From positions 1-36,239 of the IMG/VR virus record IMGVR_UViG_3300050821_013935: 36,239 nucleotides of DNA; one strand, given 5' to 3'. The position numbers and the translations under genes were made by a program. Positions 14,767-33,801 of the stretch are shown here, one piece after another. The notes beneath the pieces were generated by a model. The model ran no database searches, was not told the origin of the DNA, and saw only the letters and a list, made by a program, of their open reading frames with translations. Position 1 is the first letter of the stretch. Every line of letters starts with the position of its first letter. This DNA is from a virus.

Positions 14767-14841
14767 GGGCGCGCGGGTCTCGATCTTCGGATCGGGCCGC
14801 GCCCTCTCGCCTTCTACTTTTGGCCCCGCGAGGGGCCATTT
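14767..14841 (+). terminator. Double hairpin after tail tube gene
   Basis: First stem: GGGCGCG (14767-14773) with CGCGCCC (14798-14804), holding an inner CGATC-TTCG-GATCG stem with a UUCG loop (14781-14794). Second stem: TGGCCCC-GCGA-GGGGCCA (14821-14838), a GNRA-type loop followed by TTTT. These probably terminate or stabilise the tail tube message. Confidence 0.7.
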
Positions 14842-14862: not shown

Positions 14863-15216
14863 ATGCCGCATCTGCTGCCGCTTCCCGATTCGCGCTGCGC
14901 TCATACCAAAAATGTGATCCGCGTCGGCGCCCTGAACTGGGTGCCGATCTTTTGCGCCAACTGTGGCGCCGACGGCGGCATCGTGCCCGAAGAAAGCATA
15001 ACCTTCGTCTTCTATCTCTGCGATCCGTGCGCGCAGCGAAACGGCCAAATCGATGGCATGTACATGGAGCCGGACGCGATATTTTTCGAGAAGGTGCGCC
15101 AGGCGCAAATCGAAAAGTACGGCCGCGAGCTGACGGCGGGGGAACTCGTCGTCGAGCTCGAGGACGAAAGCAGCATTATGAGCAAGCTCGCGAAGGATGG
15201 GCCGAAACCGGCCTAA
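14863..15216 (+). CDS. Zinc-ribbon-like protein (117 aa)
   Basis: ATG at 14863 is given; an in-frame TTG at 14857 is better spaced from GGAGG (14847-14851) and may be the true start. The pattern FCANCGA...YLCDPCAQ (two CxxC pairs about 20 residues apart) suggests a zinc ribbon. A charged helical C-terminus with KYGRELTAGELVVELEDE follows. It sits between tail tube and the next structural gene. Function unknown. Confidence 0.65.
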   Translation: MPHLLPLPDSRCAHTKNVIRVGALNWVPIFCANCGADGGIVPEESITFVFYLCDPCAQRNGQIDGMYMEPDAIFFEKVRQAQIEKYGRELTAGELVVELEDESSIMSKLAKDGPKPA

Positions 15217-15240: not shown

Positions 15241-15711
15241 ATGCCAATGGTCTACGATTTCGGACTGGCAACGGCCGGCAACTTCACGACTTCGGGCACC
15301 GCGAATACGGAGTCGAACACGTACAGCATCAAACCGGGCGTCCGCAACGTGGGACTGCAATCGCTCGCTTTGCTCGGAAAAGGCGCAGGCCTCACCGCGA
15401 TTTCGGGCATCGTCGCCCGCATCGTTAGCTGGGCTACTGCTTCCACCAGCGGTACCGCGCTCACGCCGACGCCCAAGGATCCCCAGATGGGCGCCGCGAA
15501 AGCGACCGTTGTCTCCGCGGCCACCAACGGTTCGACCCGCACCAACCGCCTCTCGATCGGCTGCGGCGCCGCCGGGCCCGGCGGATGGGTTGCACCGAAC
15601 CCGGACTCGGTGATCTACCAGCAAGGCTCCGGCGCAGGATCGACGGACGTTCTGAACGCTTCAGGGACCGCGTCTCTGAACTTCGAATGCTCCGGCGAAA
15701 TCGTCGAGTAA
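15241..15711 (+). CDS. Putative structural protein (156 aa)
   Basis: AAGGAG precedes the ATG. The protein is Gly/Ser/Thr/Ala-rich, beta-type and weakly charged, with no membrane segment, which suits a virion surface protein. A strong terminator follows at once, suggesting independent high expression. No family recognised. It could be a tail tube decoration protein. Confidence 0.6.
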   Translation: MPMVYDFGLATAGNFTTSGTANTESNTYSIKPGVRNVGLQSLALLGKGAGLTAISGIVARIVSWATASTSGTALTPTPKDPQMGAAKATVVSAATNGSTRTNRLSIGCGAAGPGGWVAPNPDSVIYQQGSGAGSTDVLNASGTASLNFECSGEIVE

Positions 15712-15779: not shown

Positions 15780-18284
15780 ATGAGCCCGCTCTTCATCCAA
15801 AAGTACAACTGGTGCGTCCGGCAGTCGCAGCGCGCCGAAGACGCTTTAATCCATGCCTACCATTGGTGCGCGCGGAACAAACGCCGCACTCTCGCCCTAT
15901 GGATTGTTTCCCTGCTCTGCTTTTTTTCAGGATGGTTCGGCTGGAAATCCTCGATGCTTCAGTTCGGGTCGGGCGGCAACGCAATCGTTACGAGCTGTAC
16001 GCCGAACGCGGGAACTTCCTGCACGCTCTTGGCGACGCCCAGCTTCGGCAATTTGATTGTGGCGGCGGCGTATCGAGGCAATAGCGCCACCGCGCCGACG
16101 ACGGCGACCGGCTACACGGTCGCCAAGTCTGCGACCGGAAACACGAACAGTATCAAAGTGGGTTGGAAATTGGCTGTTGGCAATGAAACAACCTGCGGCA
16201 CTTGGGCCAACGCCACGCAGACGATGTGCGAAGTCTATAGCGGGAACTGGATTGCGAGCGCGGGGCCGATCGGCACGGCCACATCCGGCACAACCGGCTC
16301 GTCCACGTCGGTGAGCTATCCCACGTTCACGCTAAATAATCCGCTGAGCACATCATGGGTTGCATGCGCGGGCGGCGCGACTTCGGCCACAAGCGGAATG
16401 GCGGTTGCGCCTTCGGGGATGACCCTGCGTTCAGGAACTTCCATTGCCAGCATCGCTTTTAGCGACACCAATGGCAACGTGTCCACCTGGTCCACGACGA
16501 CTGTGACCGTCAGCCCGACGAGCGTCTGGGCCACGGCCTGCATTGAAATCATCGGCTCGAACATCGCCACGAACGCATCGAGCTATCTGGTGGAGCAGGC
16601 TTACCCGACGCAATCCGGCCAGGCTTGCACAAGCCCCTGCACGATCACTTACACCTTTCCGATCAAGGGCGGCAGCCTCGCCAACAATGAATTGAATCTG
16701 GTTCAGTATTGGAATTACACCGGCACCGCGCCGACGATCACCAGCGTCTACTGCAACTCCGATACGGGCCACGCGACGTGGACGTGGAGTTCGGTCAAGG
16801 CCATCACCGATCCATCCGATCTGACGGACATGAGCATGTACCACATCGACGGCGCGGCGCCGGGATGCCAGACCGTGACGGTTGCTTTTAGCACAGGCAC
16901 CACATTCACGTCTCTCAGCGGAGAACTGACCGAGTGGCGGCAGATCGCTACATCGAGCGCCATCGACGTATCGGCGGGGCAGGAAGACACGGCGGGCACG
17001 CCGGCGAACACCGCGGGCGCGTTCACGCCAACCGTCAACGGCGACGTGATCTACGACCTGTGCATGGGCACGAATCTGTTTGAAGCGGGCTTCGCGGCTG
17101 TGCCCAACTACGGGCCGTCCGGGTCTAACTTCCTCGCGGCGGACAGCGCGTTCTCTTCGCAAGGATCGGCCTTCGTCCAAACGACGGCTGCGGCAGTAAC
17201 GCCCTACGTGTGGCTCACCGGCAACGCCGCGGACACCGTGTGCATCGCGGTTGCAATGAAGGCTTCGGCCGGGGCCGGAACGGCGCCGAGCGGCGAGCAA
17301 GTCGTGCAACAGACTCAGACGGTGGGCGCGTCCGCGACGACTTCGCAGATCGAATATGCGTTGCTCAACGGAGGGGACACGGCAGTTTTCGTAGGAACGA
17401 CCGGCAACGTGCCCAGCACCGACCAGGCTTGCACCGTTATCACTGATGGGTTGAATACGTGGACGATCAAGCAGAACACTCAGGGGTCAAACTCCTACCC
17501 AATGATGGCGTTCAATTCAAACGCGAACGCGGGCAACGGTTACGCGCTGCTATCGAGCTGTCACGCGGATGGAAACCAGAACTGGACGTTCTTCGAGATT
17601 AGCGGAGCGCTTAACTCTTCGTCTACCGCGTCGTGGGATTCAGGAATGGGAGTGTGCTCGGCGACCGGAAGCGGCACGCCCTACTCTTCCGCGCCGGGAT
17701 CTTGCGTGCCGTCTACCTCCAACGGGGTGATGATTTCGGAAATGCTGATCGGCACAGGGCCATTCTCCGGCATCAGCTCACCCACTTGCGGTCTATACAA
17801 CTGGCCGACATATCCCGGCGTAACCGATACGTCGTACATGACCGAGGGGGGCGGTCTCTCGATCTGCTACAACACGACGACAGCCGGCGAATCCTGGACG
17901 TGGACCGGAAACCCGAACAATGCGGCGTGGGGCGCGAGCGCCAATGCCTTTGAAGCGCAGCCCTCGAGCAACGTTCTCGACGAAGACTATTGGCAGAACA
18001 ACGCTTCACAGTATATTGACGCGGCATTTAACGGGACGATCTACGGCCTGCCATTGGGACTTGAGATCGGCCTGATCGTGGGGGCCTGTGCTTACCGGAA
18101 AAAGCTTTCTGTTTTACGCGCTGTCGATCGCACTCGGTTCGTTTCTGGGTGTGGAAATCCTTCCCGCGATTCGCTCCTGGATCACGGGCTGGATTACAAA
18201 GGCGCGGACCTCCTTTCTCTCATCGCTGCGCAATCGAATCGAGACGCGCAAAAACCGCGAGACGGTGAGCGAAGAGCTAATTAA
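15780..18284 (+). CDS. Large membrane-anchored beta-domain protein
   Basis: A basic N-terminus (to about residue 35) precedes a membrane helix at about 36-54 (TLALWIVSLLCFFSGWFGW). About 680 residues of Ser/Thr/Gly/Ala-rich beta sequence with paired cysteines follow, in roughly three similar Ig- or jelly-roll-like domains. A DEDYWQN motif lies near 733, and a second hydrophobic stretch (GLEIGLIVGACAY) near 757-770. The last ~60 residues overlap another, more convincing frame (18088-18291), so the true C-terminus may be different. No ribosome-binding site is visible. Role unknown: a surface, tail or host-altering protein is possible. Confidence 0.7.
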   Translation: MSPLFIQKYNWCVRQSQRAEDALIHAYHWCARNKRRTLALWIVSLLCFFSGWFGWKSSMLQFGSGGNAIVTSCTPNAGTSCTLLATPSFGNLIVAAAYRGNSATAPTTATGYTVAKSATGNTNSIKVGWKLAVGNETTCGTWANATQTMCEVYSGNWIASAGPIGTATSGTTGSSTSVSYPTFTLNNPLSTSWVACAGGATSATSGMAVAPSGMTLRSGTSIASIAFSDTNGNVSTWSTTTVTVSPTSVWATACIEIIGSNIATNASSYLVEQAYPTQSGQACTSPCTITYTFPIKGGSLANNELNLVQYWNYTGTAPTITSVYCNSDTGHATWTWSSVKAITDPSDLTDMSMYHIDGAAPGCQTVTVAFSTGTTFTSLSGELTEWRQIATSSAIDVSAGQEDTAGTPANTAGAFTPTVNGDVIYDLCMGTNLFEAGFAAVPNYGPSGSNFLAADSAFSSQGSAFVQTTAAAVTPYVWLTGNAADTVCIAVAMKASAGAGTAPSGEQVVQQTQTVGASATTSQIEYALLNGGDTAVFVGTTGNVPSTDQACTVITDGLNTWTIKQNTQGSNSYPMMAFNSNANAGNGYALLSSCHADGNQNWTFFEISGALNSSSTASWDSGMGVCSATGSGTPYSSAPGSCVPSTSNGVMISEMLIGTGPFSGISSPTCGLYNWPTYPGVTDTSYMTEGGGLSICYNTTTAGESWTWTGNPNNAAWGASANAFEAQPSSNVLDEDYWQNNASQYIDAAFNGTIYGLPLGLEIGLIVGACAYRKKLSVLRAVDRTRFVSGCGNPSRDSLLDHGLDYKGADLLSLIAAQSNRDAQKPRDGERRAN

Positions 18285-18291
18285 AAAATGA
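18088..18291 (+). CDS. Small membrane protein overlapping the preceding gene
   Basis: GTG 18088 opens a 67-residue frame with GGGGG 3 bases upstream. It reads SFLFYALSIALGSFLGVEIL (membrane helix), then an amphipathic basic stretch ending VSEELIKK. This is more protein-like than the frame of the large upstream gene over the same ~200 bases. It ends in an ATGA overlap with the next gene. It could be a separate small protein or the real C-terminus of the upstream protein after a +1 shift. Confidence 0.55.
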   Translation: MLTGKSFLFYALSIALGSFLGVEILPAIRSWITGWITKARTSFLSSLRNRIETRKNRETVSEELIKK

Positions 18292-19943
18292 TTCGTTTCT
18301 ACATCAACGACGATCTGCCGCAGGCCTCGGCGCCCAGCGTCATCTACGATGAGTCCGATTCCTGGTGGGGCGGCGTACAGAAGTGCGCCGCGGCCGTCGC
18401 CATCGCGGCGACGCTGGTCATCGCCGCCGCTTCGACGCAGGCCTCCATCGAGGCGGCCAGTCTCGGAGGAGCGGACGATCTTCCCGCCGGCCAGCTTTAC
18501 GGCCAGCCGGATGAGGACTTTTACCAGCCGCCGCCGGCGTGGCCGGTCGTCTTCGAATATCCACAGTCGTGGAGTTTCGAGCAGAACGAACCGGCGGGAT
18601 CTCTCGCGGGCCAGCCCGACGAAGATTTCTGGCAGAATCCGGTCGCCCCGGTTGTTTGGCCGAACGCATGTCCACAGCCGTGGAGTTTCGAGCAGAACGA
18701 AAATGCTGCCGGCCTGTTCGGCCAGCCTGATGAAGATTTCTACGAGCCGCCACCGCCCTGGCCGATCGTCTTCATTTACCCGCAGCAGGCGTCGTTTGAG
18801 CAAAACGAAAACGCCGCAGGCCTTTACGGCCAGCCGGACGAGGACTTTTACGAGCCGCCGCCGGCTTGGCCAGTCTCGTTCCAATATCCGCAGCCCTGGG
18901 CGTTCGATCCATCGGAAATCGTTCCTGCTTCCGCACCGCCTCTCGTGCCCGATGAAGACTTCTGGGCGAACCCGGTCGCGCCTGTCCCCGGCTCGAACTT
19001 CCAGCGGCTGCCTTACCTTCCCGACGTCGAGGAGCTGCCGGCGGGATTCCTGCATGGTCAGCCCGACGAGGACTATTTCGTACAGCCCGTCGCGCCCGTT
19101 ACCTGGCCCAACCAATATCCGCAGCCGTGGAGCTTCGACCAATCGGAGATCGTCCCCGCGGCCGTCGTTTTCCAGCCGGACGAAGACTACTGGATCCGGC
19201 CAGCCGTTCAACCGGCCAGCGCCAATGCGGCGCCTCAGCCGTGGACTTTCGATCAGCAGGAAGTTTGCGTTGTTCCCGGCGACGAGGACTACTTCTTCAA
19301 TCCGATCGCGCCGGCAAGCTGGACCAACCGATGCCCACAATTGTGGGCGTTCGATCCCGGTGATTACGTTCCGCCGCCGGTGCCGCTGCCCGTCGACGAG
19401 CTCTACTGGCAGAATCCCGTCGCGCCGGTCACCTATGGCCATATATGGCTACAGCCGTATCTGGTGGCCGAAGACAGCGACCAATATGCGCCACCCGTTC
19501 TCGCCACCGATTTTCTGTACGCGACGGCGGGGTCTGTTTCGCAGGTGATGGTTTGCACCGGAGGAGGCGTCAACGTGACGGCTGCAATGATTAGCCCGTT
19601 TGATACAGGCGCGATCGACGTCCCTTTCATCCTTGTTCCCGAGAGCGATAACTTCATCAAGTGGGGCCCGGTCGTTCGCGGATCGGACGGCGTGACGCCC
19701 GTCGTCGATGCAACCGGGACCGCGACGCTCTACGATGAATACGGACAGGCCGTGCCGGGCGGAACGACGTCGCTCACCACAACCGGCGTGGCGGGAATTT
19801 ACACGGGAACGTTTTCGGCAGCGGGCTTCATCCCTCCGCCGGGCAGGAGCTATCGCCTGCAGATCACTTTGAATTCGCCATCACTTGCCGCGACCCGCAA
19901 CTGGTGGATCGATTCGTGGGTCGAAGAAACGGATATAGCCTGA
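18288..19943 (+). CDS. Nine-repeat DED-aromatic protein with C-terminal beta domain
   Basis: 551 residues. An Ala-rich hydrophobic stretch lies at about 33-48. Nine repeats of 34-38 residues follow (about 65-400), each centred on PDEDF/YW..P followed by a Pro/aromatic stretch and often WSFEQNE. DED starts are near 75, 111, 148, 184, 222, 260, 298 and 332, and a variant DELYW near 370. Residues 415-551 form a beta domain with GTATLYDEYGQAVPGG and GVAGIYTGTF, like Ig-type domains of phage tail proteins. The gene starts in ATGA overlap with the small membrane protein. Family unknown to me. Confidence 0.8.
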   Translation: MIRFYINDDLPQASAPSVIYDESDSWWGGVQKCAAAVAIAATLVIAAASTQASIEAASLGGADDLPAGQLYGQPDEDFYQPPPAWPVVFEYPQSWSFEQNEPAGSLAGQPDEDFWQNPVAPVVWPNACPQPWSFEQNENAAGLFGQPDEDFYEPPPPWPIVFIYPQQASFEQNENAAGLYGQPDEDFYEPPPAWPVSFQYPQPWAFDPSEIVPASAPPLVPDEDFWANPVAPVPGSNFQRLPYLPDVEELPAGFLHGQPDEDYFVQPVAPVTWPNQYPQPWSFDQSEIVPAAVVFQPDEDYWIRPAVQPASANAAPQPWTFDQQEVCVVPGDEDYFFNPIAPASWTNRCPQLWAFDPGDYVPPPVPLPVDELYWQNPVAPVTYGHIWLQPYLVAEDSDQYAPPVLATDFLYATAGSVSQVMVCTGGGVNVTAAMISPFDTGAIDVPFILVPESDNFIKWGPVVRGSDGVTPVVDATGTATLYDEYGQAVPGGTTSLTTTGVAGIYTGTFSAAGFIPPPGRSYRLQITLNSPSLAATRNWWIDSWVEETDIA

Positions 19944-20545
19944 TGAAAAGTTCCGCGATTCGCCGCCGCGTGCTGCCCTTCACTCCGCTCGAGCTGATGC
20001 TCCAGGAGCCGGGCGGCGGCCACTACAAGCTGGAGCTGAACCTCGCCTTCGATATGAATGCCGCCGCGGCCATTCAGGAAAAGACCGCCGACCCGCGTGC
20101 CGGCGTCGAAATTTTCGCCTGTAAGGAATGCGGGACGCTCAATGAACTCCGTCCTTTTAGAGGCTTCATGCTCACTAATTTCGCGACTTTCGCGCACATC
20201 AGCGAACCTCGGCTATTGCGCGTGATGCTGTGGGCGGCGATGCTGGCCCACCAGCCCGAATACGATTCGGACGAAGGGCTGAGGACGGTGGGCACGTTCA
20301 TCCAGGAGAGCAATGCGGAACAGATCGTGGAGGCGATCCAAAACGCCTATTTCGCCTTTCTGCCGGCACACAAGGTCGATGCCATCAAAAAGCTGATCGC
20401 GGAAAAAGAATCGAAAGGCGCCGGTGCTGAAACGAAAAGCCCTTTGGAAGAGATGAAGGCCGCGAACCCCGAGACGAATGGATCGAGCTCTGGGCCATTG
20501 CCCGATATGACCTTCGGCTTAGTGAAGAAGAGTTCGGTCGATTAA
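19943..20545 (+). CDS. Tail assembly chaperone, gpG-like
   Basis: The ATG at 19943 lies just at the previous stop. The 200-residue product contains LELNLAFDMNAAAAIQEKT, as in tail chaperones, a CKEC pair and a helical middle (LLRVMLWAAMLAHQPEY). It lies between the tail tube region and the tape measure, where siphophages make two chaperones by -1 frameshifting. A CCCTTTG site in frame at 20440-20446 would give the longer form. The chaperones bind the tape measure and recruit tube subunits. Confidence 0.85.
   Translation: MKSSAIRRRVLPFTPLELMLQEPGGGHYKLELNLAFDMNAAAAIQEKTADPRAGVEIFACKECGTLNELRPFRGFMLTNFATFAHISEPRLLRVMLWAAMLAHQPEYDSDEGLRTVGTFIQESNAEQIVEAIQNAYFAFLPAHKVDAIKKLIAEKESKGAGAETKSPLEEMKAANPETNGSSSGPLPDMTFGLVKKSSVD
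20440..20446 (+). other. Predicted -1 ribosomal frameshift site (CCCTTTG)
   Basis: The heptamer reads C CCT TTG in the chaperone frame, exactly the X XXY YYZ pattern. It lies after the last stop of the -1 frame (TGA 20428-20430) and before the 0-frame stop (20543-20545), so it is inside the only usable window. Confidence 0.75.
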
Positions 20546-20812: not shown

Positions 20813-23299
20813 ATGTCCCTCTTCTCGATTTTCGTTGACCTCAAAGCGAACACGGCGGATTTCGTCTCGGGAATGGAGCGCGGCTCCTATGCGGCGAAAA
20901 AGGCCGGTCGCGAAATCCAGGAATCGTTCAGTAGCCTTGGAGACATTGCTGAAAAGGCGCTAGCGCCCCTGGGCGAAGTGGGCGAAGCGATCGGCGCGTC
21001 GCTTTCCGGAATTGCCAATGCGGCCGGAAAAGCCGCATCCGGTCTGGCGAGCATTGGCGCGCTAAGTCCCGTCGCGGCGATCGGAGGCATTGCAGCCGTT
21101 GCGACGGCCGCGGCGGTCGGACTCTCCGCGCTCGCCATCAAAGGCACGGAGGTTGTTGAAAATTTCCGCACAGTCTCGGAGCAGACCGGGATTTCTATTT
21201 CGGATCTGCAGGTCTTCGGCGCCGCCGGTGAATCTGTTGGCGTCTCGCTCGAAGACGTCGTCGCCGGGATGCGCAAGTTCGATCAGGTCCTCACGGATAC
21301 CGGTCGCGGCGTAGGGCCGCTGCAGGCCACGCTAAAATCGCTCGGCATAACCGCGGTCGATAATAGAAATGCGATTCTTCAGCTTGCCGATGCTTTCAAG
21401 GACATGCCGGACGGTCCGCGCAAGGCAGCGATCGCCATCGAGCTTCTCGGCCGCAGCGGGCTAAGCCTGATCCCGATTCTCGACCAGGGCCGCGAAGGCA
21501 TCGAAGAGTTTCAGGGGATCGTCAAGGACTTCGGTCCTAACATCGACTCTGGAGCGATCGCCGCAACGGAAGAGTGGAAAAAATCAACGGTTGAGCTTGG
21601 GCAAGCGTGGGGTAACGCCAAAGTCAGTCTCGGCGGCATCCTACCCGTACTGGCGAGCTTCGTCGATGATCTCGCCCAGGCCGTGAAATTCACATCGGGT
21701 CTCGGTCAGTTTTTGCACTTCACTCTGCCAGAAAACAGTTCCAGCGAACAAATGGGCCCGGGCGGAATGAAGATCGGGATGCCCGTCTCCGGAAAAACGG
21801 ACCTTTCCGGTCTGGCGCCGAAGGTCTCGGTCATCGACGATCAGCAGGACGCCTATGACGCATATATGGCAGGTGGAAAAGAGCAGCTCGCGCTCAAACG
21901 GGCGCAAGAGCAGCTCGATGCGGATTCGCAAGCTCAGCTGTGGAAAGCAGTCGCGGCCGACGAAGCGCATATCGCCTCGTTGAAGGAGATCATCGCGCTT
22001 GAGCAGTCACGCCAGAGTATTTTCGAGAAGATCGGCGCGCGCATCGACGCCGGCGACCTCGCGCATCCCACGCTCGCGCATCGCGATTCGTTCAACGGCC
22101 CGACGGAAGCGCAGACGGCCGCGCTGCCAACGTTCAGCCAGCTCGGGATCGTGGCGTCTCCGCAAGATGTGGCGGCGAACAATCAGGCGGTCGCGCAAAT
22201 GAATGCGACCAAGACGGCCGCGGATGCCATCCAATCGCAGATCGATGATTTCTGGAAGCAATTCGGCGATGATGCGAGCAACACGGTCGACCAGATCAAC
22301 GCCGGCTACGATAAGGAACTCACCAGCTTTCGCGATCTGCTCCTCCAGCAGAAGATCTCGCAGCAAGATTGGAGCGCGATTTCGGTCCAAATCGAAAAGA
22401 GCCGCATCGAGACGATCGCCGCGCTCTACCAATCGCAGCAGGAACAGGGCAAGAAGCTCGACCAGGACGTGATCGCCGATCCCTTCACCAGCCTCGGCAG
22501 CAAGTTCCAGGCGTTTGCAAATCAGATCCAGCTCGAGGGACAAAACCTCGGGCCGAAACTTTTCTCGTCGATGTCGACGGCCGTCGACGGCCTTGAAAGC
22601 CAGCTCGCGAAGCTCGTCGTAACCGGCAAGGCGAACTTCAAACAGCTCTTCGATTCGTTTGCCGAATCGGCGGCGAAGGCGGGCATACAAAATATTTTCG
22701 GCTCGATCGCGGGTCTCTTTAGCGGCAATGGCGGATTACCGAATTCTTCTCAGAACGCTCCAGGAGGCACGCCGGGAATCGTCTCCGGATCGCTCGGCCT
22801 TATCGGCTCTGTCGGCAAACTCTTCGGCCTCGGCGGCAGTAGCGGCGGACCTGGCGGCGCACCTACTGGGTCGCAAGCGAGCCCGTTCTACGTGGTGATG
22901 GCGGGAGGCGGCTCCGGCGGCGCGGCCGGAGGCGGCGGTCTCTTGAGCCTTTTCGGCGGAGGCGGCTCGGACTCGGACAGCAGCTCCGGGGGAGGCGGCG
23001 GCTTCGCCGGAATTCTTTCCTCGTTTGCGGGCTTAGGCAGCCTGGTCGGTCTCGCCGGCGGCGGCGATATGACGCCCGGCCGCGCATACCTGGTCGGCGA
23101 AAAAGGCCCGGAGCTGATGTTTGCCGGCAAGCGCGGCGGCTCGATCGTGCCGATCGGCGCCGGGCCGCGCGGCCACACCGTCAACAACAACATCATGATC
23201 AACGGGGTGAGTGATTTCGATAGCTTCAACCGATCGAAGGGCCAGATCATGGCCGACTTCCATCGCACCACGCAAAACGCGCTCGCGCGCAACGGATAG
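20813..23299 (+). CDS. Tail tape measure protein
   Basis: 828 residues. It starts FSIFVDLKANTADFVSGMER, typical of lambda H-like tape measures, then Ala/Gly-rich hydrophobic helices (about 55-110), then long coiled helices. Gly-rich stretches lie at about 640-740. The C-terminus has MTPGRAYLVGEKGPELM, the signature end of this family. It sets tail length and is ejected ahead of DNA. It follows the chaperones directly. It is on the short side, implying a moderate tail. Confidence 0.94.
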   Translation: MSLFSIFVDLKANTADFVSGMERGSYAAKKAGREIQESFSSLGDIAEKALAPLGEVGEAIGASLSGIANAAGKAASGLASIGALSPVAAIGGIAAVATAAAVGLSALAIKGTEVVENFRTVSEQTGISISDLQVFGAAGESVGVSLEDVVAGMRKFDQVLTDTGRGVGPLQATLKSLGITAVDNRNAILQLADAFKDMPDGPRKAAIAIELLGRSGLSLIPILDQGREGIEEFQGIVKDFGPNIDSGAIAATEEWKKSTVELGQAWGNAKVSLGGILPVLASFVDDLAQAVKFTSGLGQFLHFTLPENSSSEQMGPGGMKIGMPVSGKTDLSGLAPKVSVIDDQQDAYDAYMAGGKEQLALKRAQEQLDADSQAQLWKAVAADEAHIASLKEIIALEQSRQSIFEKIGARIDAGDLAHPTLAHRDSFNGPTEAQTAALPTFSQLGIVASPQDVAANNQAVAQMNATKTAADAIQSQIDDFWKQFGDDASNTVDQINAGYDKELTSFRDLLLQQKISQQDWSAISVQIEKSRIETIAALYQSQQEQGKKLDQDVIADPFTSLGSKFQAFANQIQLEGQNLGPKLFSSMSTAVDGLESQLAKLVVTGKANFKQLFDSFAESAAKAGIQNIFGSIAGLFSGNGGLPNSSQNAPGGTPGIVSGSLGLIGSVGKLFGLGGSSGGPGGAPTGSQASPFYVVMAGGGSGGAAGGGGLLSLFGGGGSDSDSSSGGGGGFAGILSSFAGLGSLVGLAGGGDMTPGRAYLVGEKGPELMFAGKRGGSIVPIGAGPRGHTVNNNIMINGVSDFDSFNRSKGQIMADFHRTTQNALARNG

Positions 23300-25466: not shown

Positions 25467-26372
25467 ATGGCAAAGCTAGCGATCGCTGCGGCCGTCACGC
25501 TTGCGGCAACCGGAGCTGAACTATTAATCGCGTCGCTCACCAAGCCGAAGCTCGGCCAGCCGTCTCTGCAGGATCTTCAGGTCACCGGCTCGGTGCCCGG
25601 CGCGCCGATTCCTTTCGGCTATGGCACGTGCCGATTCGCTGGAGAAGTGATCTGGTGTTCCGGCATTTCGTTCGCCACGCAGACCACGCACGAAGGGGGC
25701 AGCCTGGGCATCGGCGGCACCTCCACTTCGAGTTTCGTTTACACCGCGGATATCGCCGTCGCGTTCGGCGAAGGGCCTTCCTCGATCACGCGCATCTGGG
25801 CCGATTCGAAGCTGATCTACAGCACTCTTCCCGGAGACCAAAGCAATTACCCGGTGGGCGCGTATCCCGCATGGGTTTCGACCGAGACCTACAACCCCGG
25901 GAATTTGGTCTCTTACAACGGGCAGGTTTTCGAGTGCCTGGTCACCAGCACCGGCATCACGCCTTCGACGATCATCCCCACCAGTGGCCCGATATATTGG
26001 GAGCTCGCCAGCGATTACCCGGCATGGCAGCCCGGAATCCTCTACCAGCAGGGTCAAACCGTGACCTACCTAGGCCAGATCTACGTCGAGGCCAGTCCCA
26101 ACGGCGCTTTTTCGCATGGGAGCAACCCTCCTCTCGGCAATCCGAGCTGGCAGTCGCTCGCGCAGTATTACGGCACGCCCACGATCTACCCCGGCAACCA
26201 GACGCAGGGCGTCGATCCCGATATTCAGGCATCCGAGGGCGTTGATCTCACGCCCGCGTTTCGCGGCCTTTGCTACCTGAAATGGATGAACCTACCGCTG
26301 CTCAATTTCGGCAACCGCATTCCGAGCCTGCGCGCTGAAGTGAATTTCCAGAAAGTGGCGAGCGTCCTCTAG
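25467..26372 (+). CDS. Tail tip protein, N-terminal part, with two binding modules
   Basis: 301 residues. It starts with a hydrophobic helix (MAKLAIAAAVTLAATG). The phage tail part covers VPGAPIPFGYGTCRFAGEVIW and later FRGLCYLKWMNLPLLNFGNR, which belong to the gpJ/RcGTA g15-like N-terminus. Two tandem aromatic modules (about 133-180 and 185-235: W..Y..G..V.Y.GQ.F and repeat) are inserted. The frame stops at TAG 26370-26372; one codon later an ATG continues in the same frame. In related phages the two parts are one long gene. Confidence 0.85.
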   Translation: MAKLAIAAAVTLAATGAELLIASLTKPKLGQPSLQDLQVTGSVPGAPIPFGYGTCRFAGEVIWCSGISFATQTTHEGGSLGIGGTSTSSFVYTADIAVAFGEGPSSITRIWADSKLIYSTLPGDQSNYPVGAYPAWVSTETYNPGNLVSYNGQVFECLVTSTGITPSTIIPTSGPIYWELASDYPAWQPGILYQQGQTVTYLGQIYVEASPNGAFSHGSNPPLGNPSWQSLAQYYGTPTIYPGNQTQGVDPDIQASEGVDLTPAFRGLCYLKWMNLPLLNFGNRIPSLRAEVNFQKVASVL

Positions 26373-26375
26373 GCC

Positions 26376-28730
26376 ATGCCTACTCCACTGATTGCCGTCT
26401 CCGGGGCCGGGACGGTTCCCGTCGGCGTCGGATTCGGTTTCACGATTCACGGCGCCGGGCGCGTGCTGCTTTTTTCTTTTTCGGCCTCTCCGAGTTGCGG
26501 CGGGAACAATCCTTCGATCGCGGACTCCTTTGGAAACAGCTGGACTCCCATCGCTCTCGGGGACGGCTTTGGCGTGTGGTACTGCATCACGAGCACGACC
26601 GGGAGCGGAACGATCACGATCACCCAGCCGGGCAACGCCGGTCTCGGCGGAAATTACCAGATCGCTTGGTGGGAGGTCACAGGCTGGGCCGGGGCGACGG
26701 CGGCCGCCTCGGCCGGCGTCGGCGAAACTGCGGCGCTGGCCATGAACGCGCAGATTCTTTTCGATTCGCTTCCGGTGGCGGCCTCGGCCGTTCCGTACAA
26801 CGCGGTGATCGTCGCCATCACGAGCTCGTCGGGCAATCCCTTGGTGCTGCTGATCGTGGGATCGAGTTCGGGGTCCGCTGCGGGTGCGCCATCGTCGGTC
26901 GAAGGTTGGACGAGCAACTATCCCACGTATCCAGCGACCGGTCCGCTGGTGCTCTGGTATTTCACATTCAGCACGCTTTCAAACGACATCGTGACCGACA
27001 TTTGCATTCGCGCGGGCCTGACGAGCTCGCAGATCGACGTCTCGCTGCTCACGAACGCAAATATTTTCGGTGGCAGCACGGCGGTGACCGGCTACCTGGT
27101 CGAACGCCCGACGGCCGCCTCGGAAGTTTTGAAGCATCTGATGCAGGCGTATTTCTTCGATGCGTGCGAGACGAACGGCACGATGCGCTTCGTCCCGCGC
27201 GGAATGGCGAGCGCGCTCACCATCCCGGAATTGGACCTCGGCCTGGTGAAGGACAAAGCGAAGGTCAACCCCGAGACGATCTCGCAGGCGCAGGATTTGC
27301 CGCTTCTTGTCAACGTGCTCTACGACGACATCGCGCTCGATTACCAGCAGAACAGCCAGCAGCGATCGCGCAGCGCGCGAATCATTCAGACCAAACAGCA
27401 GAAAACCATTTCGCTGCCGATCGTGATGGCCGAGACGCAGGCCCTGCAGATCGCCGAGACGCAGCTCTATCTCGACTGGCTCGAGCGAAACGGTTTCAAA
27501 TTCAATCTCGGCTCGCCGCAATATTCCCTGCTCGATCCCACCGACGTGATTCAGTTCGTCTATGAGACCCTCACGTTTCAGGTTCGGATCTCCGACACTT
27601 CGATCGGCGTCGACTTGGTGACCGCAATTTCCAGCGTCAACGAGGACCCGAGCAGCTTCCTTTCCTACCTCTCGCAGCCCACCGGGAACCCGCAGCCCAG
27701 GAATCCGCTCAAGATTCTCAACTTCACGAGTCTTTTCCTTTTCGATATCCCGCTGCTCGTCGATTCCGATTCGAACCCCGACAACACCGGCTTCTATTTT
27801 GCGATGGCCTCGCAGGCGGACGACTGGACCGGGGGCGTGCTCTACGAATCGAGTGACGACGTGGATTTCGGCCAGGAAGCCAGCAGCAGCGCGAACACAA
27901 CTTACGGAAATTGCACCACGACGCTGGGCGCTCCCGCTTCGCCCTGGACGCTCGATACGGTGAACACGCTGACCGTCGAGCCGGTGATCGGCTCGCTTTC
28001 CGGCGTCACGCTGGCCGACATGCTCAATGGCGCGAACGCCGCGATCGTGGGCAGCGAACTGATTCAATTCCAGACCGCCGTCGACAATGGAAACGGAACT
28101 TTCACGATCTCGAATTTCCTGCGCGGAATGAAAGGGACCGAAGGCTCCTGCGCGTCGCACGGCTCGAACGAATTGTTCCTCCTGCTTTCGACCGCGATCC
28201 AGCGCGTCCCGATGGCGATCTCGCAGCTCGCGCAGCCGCTTTATTACAAGGGCGTAAGCGTTGGAACCGATCCGACCACGATCGATGCGCAGAGCTTCAC
28301 CGTGAACGGCGCGGACCTGAAACCTTACGCGCCGGCCGGGATCGGTGGCACGGTCGACGGCAGCGGAAATATCATCATCACCTGGATCCGCCGCACGCGG
28401 ATCGGCGGCGAAGCCGATTGGGCCGACGGAGTACTCGACGTCCCGCTAAGCGAGCAGGCCGAACTGTATGACGTCGACGTGCTCAACGGCTCGACGGTCG
28501 TGCGCACGATCAGCGAGCTCGCCACGGCCACCTGCGTTTACACGCAGGCGATGCAGGTAGCGGACTTCGGCTCGGCGCAATCGTCGGTCAGCGTGAATGT
28601 TTATCAGCGATCGGTGCAAGTGGGCCGCGGCTTGAAAGCGAATGGCACTGCACCGACGCCTGGCGGCTGGCCGACGCCCTGGCCCGCGATCTATCCGGGC
28701 GAGCAGCTCTTCTATGTCAATGGCTCCTAG
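26376..28730 (+). CDS. Tail tip protein, C-terminal part (gpJ/g15-like)
   Basis: 784 residues in the same frame as the preceding gene, one codon after its TAG. An extra N-terminal beta domain (about 1-110: ADSFGNSWTP, VWYCITSTTGSG, IAWWEVTGW) precedes conserved tail sequence starting SNDIVTDICIRAGL. The body has KHLMQAYFFDACETNG and FLRGMKGTEGSC, as in the phage-tail_3/GTA tail-tip family. It is expected to form the receptor-facing tip. Ends with TAG. Confidence 0.9.
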   Translation: MPTPLIAVSGAGTVPVGVGFGFTIHGAGRVLLFSFSASPSCGGNNPSIADSFGNSWTPIALGDGFGVWYCITSTTGSGTITITQPGNAGLGGNYQIAWWEVTGWAGATAAASAGVGETAALAMNAQILFDSLPVAASAVPYNAVIVAITSSSGNPLVLLIVGSSSGSAAGAPSSVEGWTSNYPTYPATGPLVLWYFTFSTLSNDIVTDICIRAGLTSSQIDVSLLTNANIFGGSTAVTGYLVERPTAASEVLKHLMQAYFFDACETNGTMRFVPRGMASALTIPELDLGLVKDKAKVNPETISQAQDLPLLVNVLYDDIALDYQQNSQQRSRSARIIQTKQQKTISLPIVMAETQALQIAETQLYLDWLERNGFKFNLGSPQYSLLDPTDVIQFVYETLTFQVRISDTSIGVDLVTAISSVNEDPSSFLSYLSQPTGNPQPRNPLKILNFTSLFLFDIPLLVDSDSNPDNTGFYFAMASQADDWTGGVLYESSDDVDFGQEASSSANTTYGNCTTTLGAPASPWTLDTVNTLTVEPVIGSLSGVTLADMLNGANAAIVGSELIQFQTAVDNGNGTFTISNFLRGMKGTEGSCASHGSNELFLLLSTAIQRVPMAISQLAQPLYYKGVSVGTDPTTIDAQSFTVNGADLKPYAPAGIGGTVDGSGNIIITWIRRTRIGGEADWADGVLDVPLSEQAELYDVDVLNGSTVVRTISELATATCVYTQAMQVADFGSAQSSVSVNVYQRSVQVGRGLKANGTAPTPGGWPTPWPAIYPGEQLFYVNGS

Positions 28731-28732
28731 GG

Positions 28733-29656
28733 ATGGCCACTCCCACCGAAATTAACCTGGTTAATTCCTCGAGCGTCACGTGGTCCGCGGGAGCTCCCTA
28801 CCCGGATCCCAACAATCCGGAGGCGACCAGGCGCGACGTTACCGCGACGGCGATCGCGACGCCCATCACCTGGCTCGGCGCGTGGAACTCGTCGACGGCT
28901 TACGTGGTGGGAGACGCGGTTTCACTCTCGGGCTCTTCATACCTTTGCATCAGCCCGAATACGAACCAGACTCCGCCCAACGCGACCTACTGGGGCGTGC
29001 TGGCCACGTCGATCGCGCTCGCCGGCGATCTGGGCGGGACGACGAGCTCGCCGAAAGTGGTGGGAATCCAGGGCGTGGGAGTTAGCGCCACGGCGCCGAC
29101 AAACGGCCAGGTGCTCGAATACAACTCCGGCAGCGGCCTCTACGTTCCCGCAAATGCCGGCGGCGTAAGCCTGGTCTCCGCAAACAACGCGGTCGCGCAA
29201 TCCACGTCAGCCTTCGCGCTGAAGGGCGCGATCGTCACGCCCCTGCAGAACCTGACGCTTCAGAAGATCTTCGCGAACATCTATGGCAATTCGGGAGATC
29301 AATACGTAGCCGCGCTCGCCACCATCACCGGCACGTCGACAATCGGCTCGATCGTGGCGACGTCGGCGACCTACACCTTCGGCTCAACCGAAACGGGAAT
29401 TGTCGTTTTCGACATGGGGGGCGCGTCGCTTTCGGCTAGCACAAAGTATGGCATCTGGATCAACATCATCAGCGGCAGCGGAACGACGCCCTGCGAGATG
29501 GACTTCCCAAGCGCGGCCGCGTGGCTGGGGCCGGGCTTTGTGACTCTTTCGACCACCGCTACCGCTCTCCGCTCCGCGAATGTGAGTCCGGCGGGCGGGA
29601 CCACGCTTTCGACGACGGCCGGAAACCCGTCGATCAATGTTGCCGTGTCGTTCTAA
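28733..29656 (+). CDS. Tail fibre-like protein with binding module
   Basis: 307 residues. After a short N-terminal segment there is a module at about 46-90 (W..AWNSSTAYVVGDAV, Y-L-C, TYWGVLA) of ChtBD3-like type. A tail-fibre hinge (AGDLGGTTSSPKVVGIQGVGV) follows, which is a widely shared fibre motif. The C-terminal half is a beta-rich domain, probably the receptor-binding head. It lies just after the tail tip gene, as fibres do. Confidence 0.85.
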   Translation: MATPTEINLVNSSSVTWSAGAPYPDPNNPEATRRDVTATAIATPITWLGAWNSSTAYVVGDAVSLSGSSYLCISPNTNQTPPNATYWGVLATSIALAGDLGGTTSSPKVVGIQGVGVSATAPTNGQVLEYNSGSGLYVPANAGGVSLVSANNAVAQSTSAFALKGAIVTPLQNLTLQKIFANIYGNSGDQYVAALATITGTSTIGSIVATSATYTFGSTETGIVVFDMGGASLSASTKYGIWINIISGSGTTPCEMDFPSAAAWLGPGFVTLSTTATALRSANVSPAGGTTLSTTAGNPSINVAVSF

Positions 29657-29668
29657 ACTGGGGGAAAG

Positions 29669-30046
29669 ATGTCGGCTACTCCAAATCTAGGAATCGCGCT
29701 GCTGCAGCAAGCGCAATCGCTGAAATACGTCACGGTGAACGACGCCTTTGACGCTTTCGATGGCGCGATCGCCGGCGTCTTCACGCAGGCGATGGCCAAT
29801 GCAAACCAGACTCCGTCGACGCCCACCGCGATGGAGAACATGGTTTTCAAATGCACCGGCGCGCTGACCGCGAATCGCGAGCTGATCCTGCCGAACTCTC
29901 CCAAGCTCTACGTCATCCATAATCTGACGACCGGCGGATTCAGCATCGTCGTGCAAACGGCTTCGCCGTCGGCCACCGTGACGGTTGGGTCGGGCGCGCA
30001 GCTCGTCTATTGCGACGGCGCGAATAATTTTTACGCCGTAGCGTGA
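29669..30046 (+). CDS. Small fibre-tip or receptor-binding protein (125 aa)
   Basis: GGGGGA precedes the ATG. The start SATPNLGIALLQQAQSLKYV followed by VNDAFDAFDGAIAG is common in phage proteins placed after fibre genes. The remainder is beta-rich (NRELILPNSPKLYVIHNLTTGG). A trimeric tip or fibre attachment role is likely but not proved. Confidence 0.7.
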   Translation: MSATPNLGIALLQQAQSLKYVTVNDAFDAFDGAIAGVFTQAMANANQTPSTPTAMENMVFKCTGALTANRELILPNSPKLYVIHNLTTGGFSIVVQTASPSATVTVGSGAQLVYCDGANNFYAVA

Positions 30047-33243: not shown

Positions 33244-33801
33244 ATGGAACACCTATCGCGCGAGCAGCTCGTGGCCCTGCTCGGCCACGCAAAAGCAAAC
33301 CGCGAACGGGACTGGGTGCTCTTCCTCGTAAGCTTCTGGCACGGGCTCCGCGCCAGCGAAGCCGTCTCGCTCACGCCGGCGCACTTCGTCGACGGCTACC
33401 TCAACATCCAGCGCCTGAAAGGTTCCTACAGAACCGTCCAGCCGCTCGTCGAAGACGTCGATCCGCTCCTGAACGAACGCGCGGCCGTCGAGATGTGGCT
33501 CGAACGCCACAAATCGGCGAACTGCCCGAATTGGCAGGCTGCGCGCCTCTTTCCGATCTCACGAGTGCAGTTTTTCCGGCTTATAAGGCGCTACGGAGCG
33601 CTGGCAGGCCTGCCCAAGCATCTTTGCCATCCCCACGTGCTGAAGCACTCCATCGCCATGCAATCGATCAGGGAGGCGGGAATAGAGAATGTGCGGCAAT
33701 ACCTGGGCCATCGCTCGATCTCGTCGACGGGAGCCTACCTGCGCGTCACGGACGAGGCGGCGAGCGCCGCGGTAATCAGCGGTAGCCGAAAAACTAAGTA
33801 G
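33244..33801 (+). CDS. Tyrosine recombinase, catalytic domain only
   Basis: 185 residues covering only the C-terminal catalytic domain. Catalytic set: R36 (GLRASEAV), K59 (QRLKGS), H131 and K134 (HPHVLKHS), H156 (YLGHRS) and Y165 (TGAYLRV). The second catalytic Arg of the usual HxxR is Lys here. No N-terminal arm- or core-binding domain is present, as in FimB/FimE-type inversion recombinases. GAAGAA before the ATG could serve as ribosome-binding site. Integration or DNA inversion at the repeats are both possible. Confidence 0.9.
   Translation: MEHLSREQLVALLGHAKANRERDWVLFLVSFWHGLRASEAVSLTPAHFVDGYLNIQRLKGSYRTVQPLVEDVDPLLNERAAVEMWLERHKSANCPNWQAARLFPISRVQFFRLIRRYGALAGLPKHLCHPHVLKHSIAMQSIREAGIENVRQYLGHRSISSTGAYLRVTDEAASAAVISGSRKTK

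Follow-up and report, generated by a model that had tools for sequence, protein, structure and literature searches.

Genes at the locus

The virus record IMGVR_UViG_3300050821_013935 from IMG/VR, analysed here over its whole length of 36,239 nucleotides (the window), carries terminase, portal, protease, major head protein, head-tail connector, tail tube, tape measure and tail-tip genes in the usual order. This report concerns the group of genes lodged between its tail tube and tape measure genes. The original prediction had placed three open reading frames (ORFs) between the tail tube and the tail chaperones: a large two-helix ectodomain protein (ORF1), a small membrane protein (ORF2) and a repeat protein with a hydrophobic segment (ORF3, hereafter gene D). 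All three are present, and the flanks agree with that description, with the tail tube on one side and, on the other, a PHROG tail protein in the chaperone position and then the tape measure (Table 1). The interval is fuller than had been thought, since two further genes, A and B, lie between the tail tube and ORF1. The features given for the proteins hold as well. ORF1, likely a beta-rich ectodomain, has two hydrophobic segments bracketing a Cys-rich stretch; gene D combines a hydrophobic segment (residues 27-54) with nine copies of a motif spread over residues 75-370; and the stop codon of ORF2 and the start codon of gene D share positions 18288-18291 as ATGA.

A conserved A-B-cargo-D unit

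The three ORFs had been expected to recur as a conserved block, and in this the original prediction failed: ORF2 occurs solely here, other genes take the place of ORF1 in the relatives, and A and B were missing from the list. The conserved unit is instead A-B-cargo-D, which begins upstream of the three ORFs. We saw this cassette in about 45 uncultured phage contigs, whose genes were called with our own short gene caller, a procedure by which small genes could be overlooked. Gene B gave 30 relatives in a first search, and a gene B profile then detected 46 loci. Directly upstream of B, gene A was found in 37 of the 40 contigs with room for it, as judged by a Cys-pattern test; L129, which is on the same contig as L068, was also positive for A, by similarity clustering. 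With a strict motif, a D-type gene was detected within 8 kb downstream of B in 18 of 31 contigs. Conversely, all D-bearing contigs checked that reach far enough upstream also carry B, which in L024 was found only with the profile. Between B and D lie 0-4 genes that differ in nearly every phage; these are the cargo, and in the window ORF1 fills the slot.

The cassette transfers among unrelated phages and is inserted amid head or tail structural genes. In the window it lies between tail tube and tape measure, in contig L041 between portal and head protease; in L046 it is flanked by portal and by a gene of head protease/major-head type, and in L049, L052 and L053 it occurs together with podovirus-type portals. 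L041 carries the closest relative of gene B (81% identity to that of the window, with 61% for A and 35% for D). The 20-kb stretch of L041 includes terminase, portal, head protease and major head protein genes, and none of the other window proteins found a match in it at E 1e-3. Two contigs, L042 and L044, share both the window backbone (29-82% identical in L044) and the tail position of the cassette. No tblastn match to A, B, D or ORF1 was obtained in 50,697 deposited phage records, 2,584 of which were matched by the window terminase. A profile and the pattern DEDFW retrieved no relatives of D from GTDB genomes, and no gene B was found in plasmids. From the look of their sequences, the contigs may originate from soil.

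Table 1. Features of the cassette and its surroundings in the window.
Feature	Position	Strand	Description
Tail tube	14330-14752		
Gene A	14863..15216	+	117 aa; CxxC...CxxC, probable zinc ribbon
Gene B	15241..15711	+	156 aa; signature GCGAAGPGGWVAPNPDS; cassette anchor
ORF1 (cargo)	15780..18284	+	834 aa; Cys-rich (23 Cys); isoelectric point (pI) 4.7
ORF1 hydrophobic segment 1	15888..15944	+	residues 37-55; RNKRR just before
ORF1 DEDYWQN motif	17979..17999	+	residues 734-740; the ORF3 repeat core in a single copy
ORF1 hydrophobic segment 2	18036..18095	+	residues 753-772; directly after the motif
ORF2	18088..18291	+	67 aa; GTG start; one hydrophobic helix; basic tail; pI 10.6
ORF3 (gene D)	18288..19943	+	551 aa; pI 4.05
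D N-terminal helix	18354..18464	+	residues 23-59; starts at conserved D-x-D-x-W-W-(A/G)-G-x-Q-K-C motif
D repeat array	18510..19457	+	9 units of 34-38 aa, motif copies spaced accordingly; core PDED(F/Y)Wx(N)PVAPVxA
D C-terminal beta domain	19695..19925	+	residues ~470-546
PHROG tail protein	19946-20545		chaperone position
Tape measure	20813-23299		
Separate tail-tip and fibre set	25467-30046		

A motif shared by the repeats of D and by cargo proteins

ORF1 and ORF3 had been reported to share the sequence DEDYWQN. The motif is indeed common to both, the exact heptapeptide being confined to ORF1; ORF3 contains one DEDFWQN and one DELYWQN. In 20,000 shuffles of ORF1, DED[YF]W arose three times. 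We also built a profile from 103 repeat cores of 16 D-type proteins and searched about 540 proteins left out of its construction. It matched ORF1 at residues 732-742 (E 0.0019) and, outside the D family, found at E < 0.1 only ORF1 and the cargo of L058. Thus, the sharing of the motif between ORF1 and ORF3 exceeds chance. In the literature searched, the motif did not occur. In relatives of gene A, a PDEVFW that resembles the PDEDFW core of D follows the second CxxC; the repeat profile is weak there (E ~5).

The cargo genes are of several types: a LamG lectin (PF13385, E 3e-19), a beta-sandwich family, a right-handed beta-helix and a kelch-like protein, the matches to the last two being weak; in a few contigs the slot holds glycosyltransferase-like genes, judged so from their sequence only, or genes with signal peptides. 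An acidic patch followed by a terminal [VIL][STQ][VIL][WF] was present in 8 of 40 block genes but in only one of 242 others, a gene of L004 that is of the same kind. This C-terminal tag, about 20 residues long, is found on the LamG lectin and on the beta-sandwich family; examples are TFEDDSFNVVLVPPIEPTISVW (L052), FVPDEDPYLQLFKQQQSDPAVSVW (L042) and FQPDEDYWTGPLPMPLEPVVSIWGG (L058), the last of which nearly equals the D repeat PDEDFWQNPVAPVPASLYQ. Of 42 cargo genes, 4 showed a Sec-like N-terminus by a crude rule, and no tagged gene was among them. D itself carries a fused beta-sandwich domain, lacking a signal peptide, ahead of its N-terminal helix in four contigs (L051, L059, L061 and L066). 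From the likeness of tag and repeat, together with these fusions, D therefore looks like a multivalent counterpart of the tag that cargo proteins bear singly.

Predicted structures of the A, B and D proteins

No Pfam model matched gene A above the cut-off (the nearest was Zn_ribbon_10, E 0.0019, in one relative), nor did any NCBIfam model. Gene B was modelled with confidence as a jelly roll (mean predicted local distance difference test score, pLDDT, 90.9). Its structural matches tie between a chain of the HFTV1 turret (8qpg_TD), plant-virus and other jelly-roll capsids, PirA, Pgp3, C1q/TNF, ExsF and phage knobs. Against 8qpg_TD, which its length suggests to be the turret base protein, the comparison gave VIA Z 8.4 with 97 of 114 aa aligned at 2.2 Å. 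By profile, no chain among PDB sequences matched gene B at a meaningful E-value. The predicted fold fits a surface role and singles out no one family. Gene B occurs as two tandem copies in L055 (3529-4499), and a related, possibly glycosyltransferase-like gene stands beside the cassette at L061:11073-11936, L064:5447-6223, L066:10678-11544 and L070:8617-9393.

In the model of D, the hydrophobic segment falls inside the N-terminal helix; it is Ala-rich and of moderate hydrophobicity (Kyte-Doolittle 1.5-1.9). There follow about 400 residues predicted to be disordered, including the repeats (pLDDT < 50), and then the C-terminal beta domain. Because of the low pLDDT of the repeats, the fold matches of D, to SIAE and to the baseplate of mycobacteriophage Douge (Z 6.6 and 6.1), are confined to the C-terminal domain and are not diagnostic; in L044 this domain is encoded by a separate gene (62% identical). 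Searched by sequence, D had no match in the PDB. Two variants of D were noted: in L008 (2-1639, minus strand) the WW-helix motif occurs twice in tandem (DDDSATAWWGGAQKC and DDDSATAWWAGAQKC), and in L068 (12854-15808) 16 repeats are joined to a C-terminal kelch-like propeller, judged from sequence, with a second kelch-like gene directly after it (15854-17104).

ORF1, ORF2 and the borders of the cassette

The sole family match of ORF1 was that of its residues 73-277 to phrog_36177 (E 2e-15), a family of proteins of unknown function. As a query, ORF1 gave no pattern match in viral contigs and nothing in the records of the relatives. Its last ~105 residues, motif included, are homologous to a 735-aa gene of L068 (E 3e-8), with no second contig matching, and this homologue likewise sits immediately upstream of a D gene.

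ORF2 overlaps the tail of ORF1 in the +1 frame. At about position 18080 the coding signal switches, the codon log-likelihood being +7.6 in the ORF2 frame vs -11.6 in the ORF1 frame, and it is on this signal alone that ORF2 is possibly a real gene. We detected no relatives, so that ORF2 is known from this record alone, and its best PHROG match had an E-value of 0.026. The ORF1 stop codon, TAA (18282-18284), lies 3 nt ahead of the ATG of ORF3. A programmed -1 frameshift fusing ORF1 and ORF2 was rejected because ORF2 occupies the +1 frame; a +1 frameshift or an assembly indel could link the two.

A terminator-like hairpin (TGGCCCCGCGAGGGGCCA, then TTTTCC) at 14821-14838 separates the tail tube gene from gene A, so the cassette may begin a new unit; the count of terminator-like sites around the cassette was not above that in shuffles. 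Farther downstream, at 33244-33801, a short integrase-like ORF (185 aa; phrog_1, E 1e-17), possibly truncated, indicates that the phage is probably temperate.

Discussion

We propose that A-B-cargo-D, a transferable cassette, gives the virion an accessory surface structure in which the tagged cargo proteins and D would bind one and the same partner; we regard this as falling only a little short of an even bet. The jelly roll of gene B would form the base, on capsid or tail. The cargo, being lectin-like, beta-sandwich, beta-helix or kelch, would supply carbohydrate binding or processing and would dock through the DED-x-W tag. D would be an extended, flexible and acidic scaffold, either docking on the partner of the cargo, putatively B, or competing for it. 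In the window phage, ORF1 would be the cargo, in a form that has gained membrane segments. That the proteins are on the virion and dock, with B as the partner and ORF1 as cargo, is what we infer; by analogy, disordered acidic motifs in tandem beside a predicted jelly-roll partner suggest docking. A more specific version, which we consider doubtful, holds that the display is mobile and tag-based: structurally unrelated carbohydrate-active proteins would be swapped in and attached to the virion by the C-terminal DED-x-W tag, with D, which has up to ~26 tag copies, as scaffold or competitor.

Several observations weigh against such a structure. Hydrophobic segments like those of D and ORF1 are unusual for virion surface proteins, and the two segments of ORF1, with the basic flank and the Cys residues, suggest export in this phage; Sec-like signal peptides are also present on cargo of L041, L052 and L057, four cargo genes in all carrying one. 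The tag is clear in only 8-9 of 21 contigs. The p value of the tag comparison (7e-7) is only descriptive because the pattern was set after inspection, and some of the tagged genes are homologous to one another. The structural ties of gene B with diverse jelly rolls are a further point, as is the assignment of L049, L052 and L053 to podoviruses, which is by portal similarity only.

In an alternative reading, A, B and D would be conserved structural or assembly genes and the B-D interval a hotspot collecting unrelated accessory genes, with no joint complex at all. The high diversity of the cargo, glycosyltransferase-like and signal-peptide genes included, speaks for this, as does the lack of a clear tag in more than half of the contigs. 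What makes this rather unlikely is that tags matching the D repeat sit on cargo proteins with at least two different folds and, outside the block, on only one gene, itself of block type; moreover, D is in some contigs fused straight to a beta-sandwich domain like those of the cargo. The original prediction of a joint complex is plausible, but its specific three-gene block is not supported.

The original prediction had left open whether the complex would be in the host envelope or on the virion. In an envelope complex, D would be anchored in the inner membrane with its acidic repeats in the periplasm and ORF1 would span the membrane twice beside it, altering the surface of the infected cell, for example for phage exclusion. 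This is consistent with the two hydrophobic segments, basic N-terminal flank and 23 Cys of ORF1, with the small, hydrophobic and basic ORF2, and with the signal peptides on cargo noted above. We consider it unlikely. Of 42 cargo genes, 38, every tagged one included, lack a Sec-like signal, which weakens the envelope option, as does the fact that the domains fused ahead of the D helix in four contigs are signal-less and would stay in the cytoplasm. In addition, the hydrophobic stretch of D is only moderately hydrophobic, and the cassette lies amid virion genes. A location on the virion would fit better. Quite improbable is that these are parts of an ordinary receptor-binding tail fibre with D as its shaft: fibres often contain lectin, beta-helix and kelch domains, and the fold of gene B resembles phage knobs, but ORF1, ORF3, B and the tested cargo matched no tail-fibre PHROG, with general domains only in the relatives, the D repeats are predicted to be disordered rather than fibrous, the window has its own tail-tip and fibre set, and in several phages the cassette lies amid head genes.

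The statement that no described system has this composition stands: neither PHROGs, Pfam nor NCBIfam has a describing family for ORF2 or ORF3, ORF1 matches only the function-unknown PHROG, and the motif is absent from the literature searched. Three known systems resemble parts of the proposed surface structure. In the HFTV1 turrets, a base hexamer bears a trimeric carbohydrate-active head (PMC12494034). The likeness of the turret (gp30 base, gp31 head; PDB 8QPG) lies in a small protein of jelly-roll-like fold, as gene B is predicted to be, joined to a carbohydrate-related surface domain in a head accessory. However, HFTV1 is an archaeal virus, gene B has no detectable sequence similarity to it, and its docking is by a beta-barrel stalk; the section consulted describes neither DED-x-W tags nor a D-like repeat protein (PMC12494034). 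T4 Hoc and the Hoc-like decoration proteins share with the cassette variable beta-sandwich domains combined with a conserved C-terminal attachment element, and an acidic character (pI 4-5 for Hoc vs 4.05 for D and 4.7 for ORF1; PMC10385173). Their attachment element is a folded capsid-binding domain, whereas here it is a tag of ~20 residues that a separate protein repeats, and the Hoc families in PHROGs, Pfam and NCBIfam did not match ORF1 or ORF3. Finally, ExsF is a trimeric jelly roll of the C1q/TNF type on which short peptide tags of surface fibres dock (PMC11952670, PDB 9H3D). In the ExsF/BclA/F-Anchor system, surface proteins that otherwise differ are held by a jelly roll through short leader motifs, and this is the logic that we suggest, by analogy, for B and the tag. 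That system belongs to the spore exosporium and uses an N-terminal leader in place of a C-terminal tag. The parallels with HFTV1 and ExsF are analogies, not homologies.

The cassette may thus serve to decorate the virus particle in plug-in fashion. If so, phages would possess plug-and-play surface display by means of a portable peptide tag, with no need for a dedicated binding domain, a kit met so far in uncultured phage contigs only. The tag would then provide a sequence handle for virion-surface adhesins and enzymes in metagenomes, and its binding to a partner would be a direct prediction, testable with short peptides. Even if the mechanism is another, the cassette comprises three conserved and linked families of proteins, A, B and D, none with a curated name.

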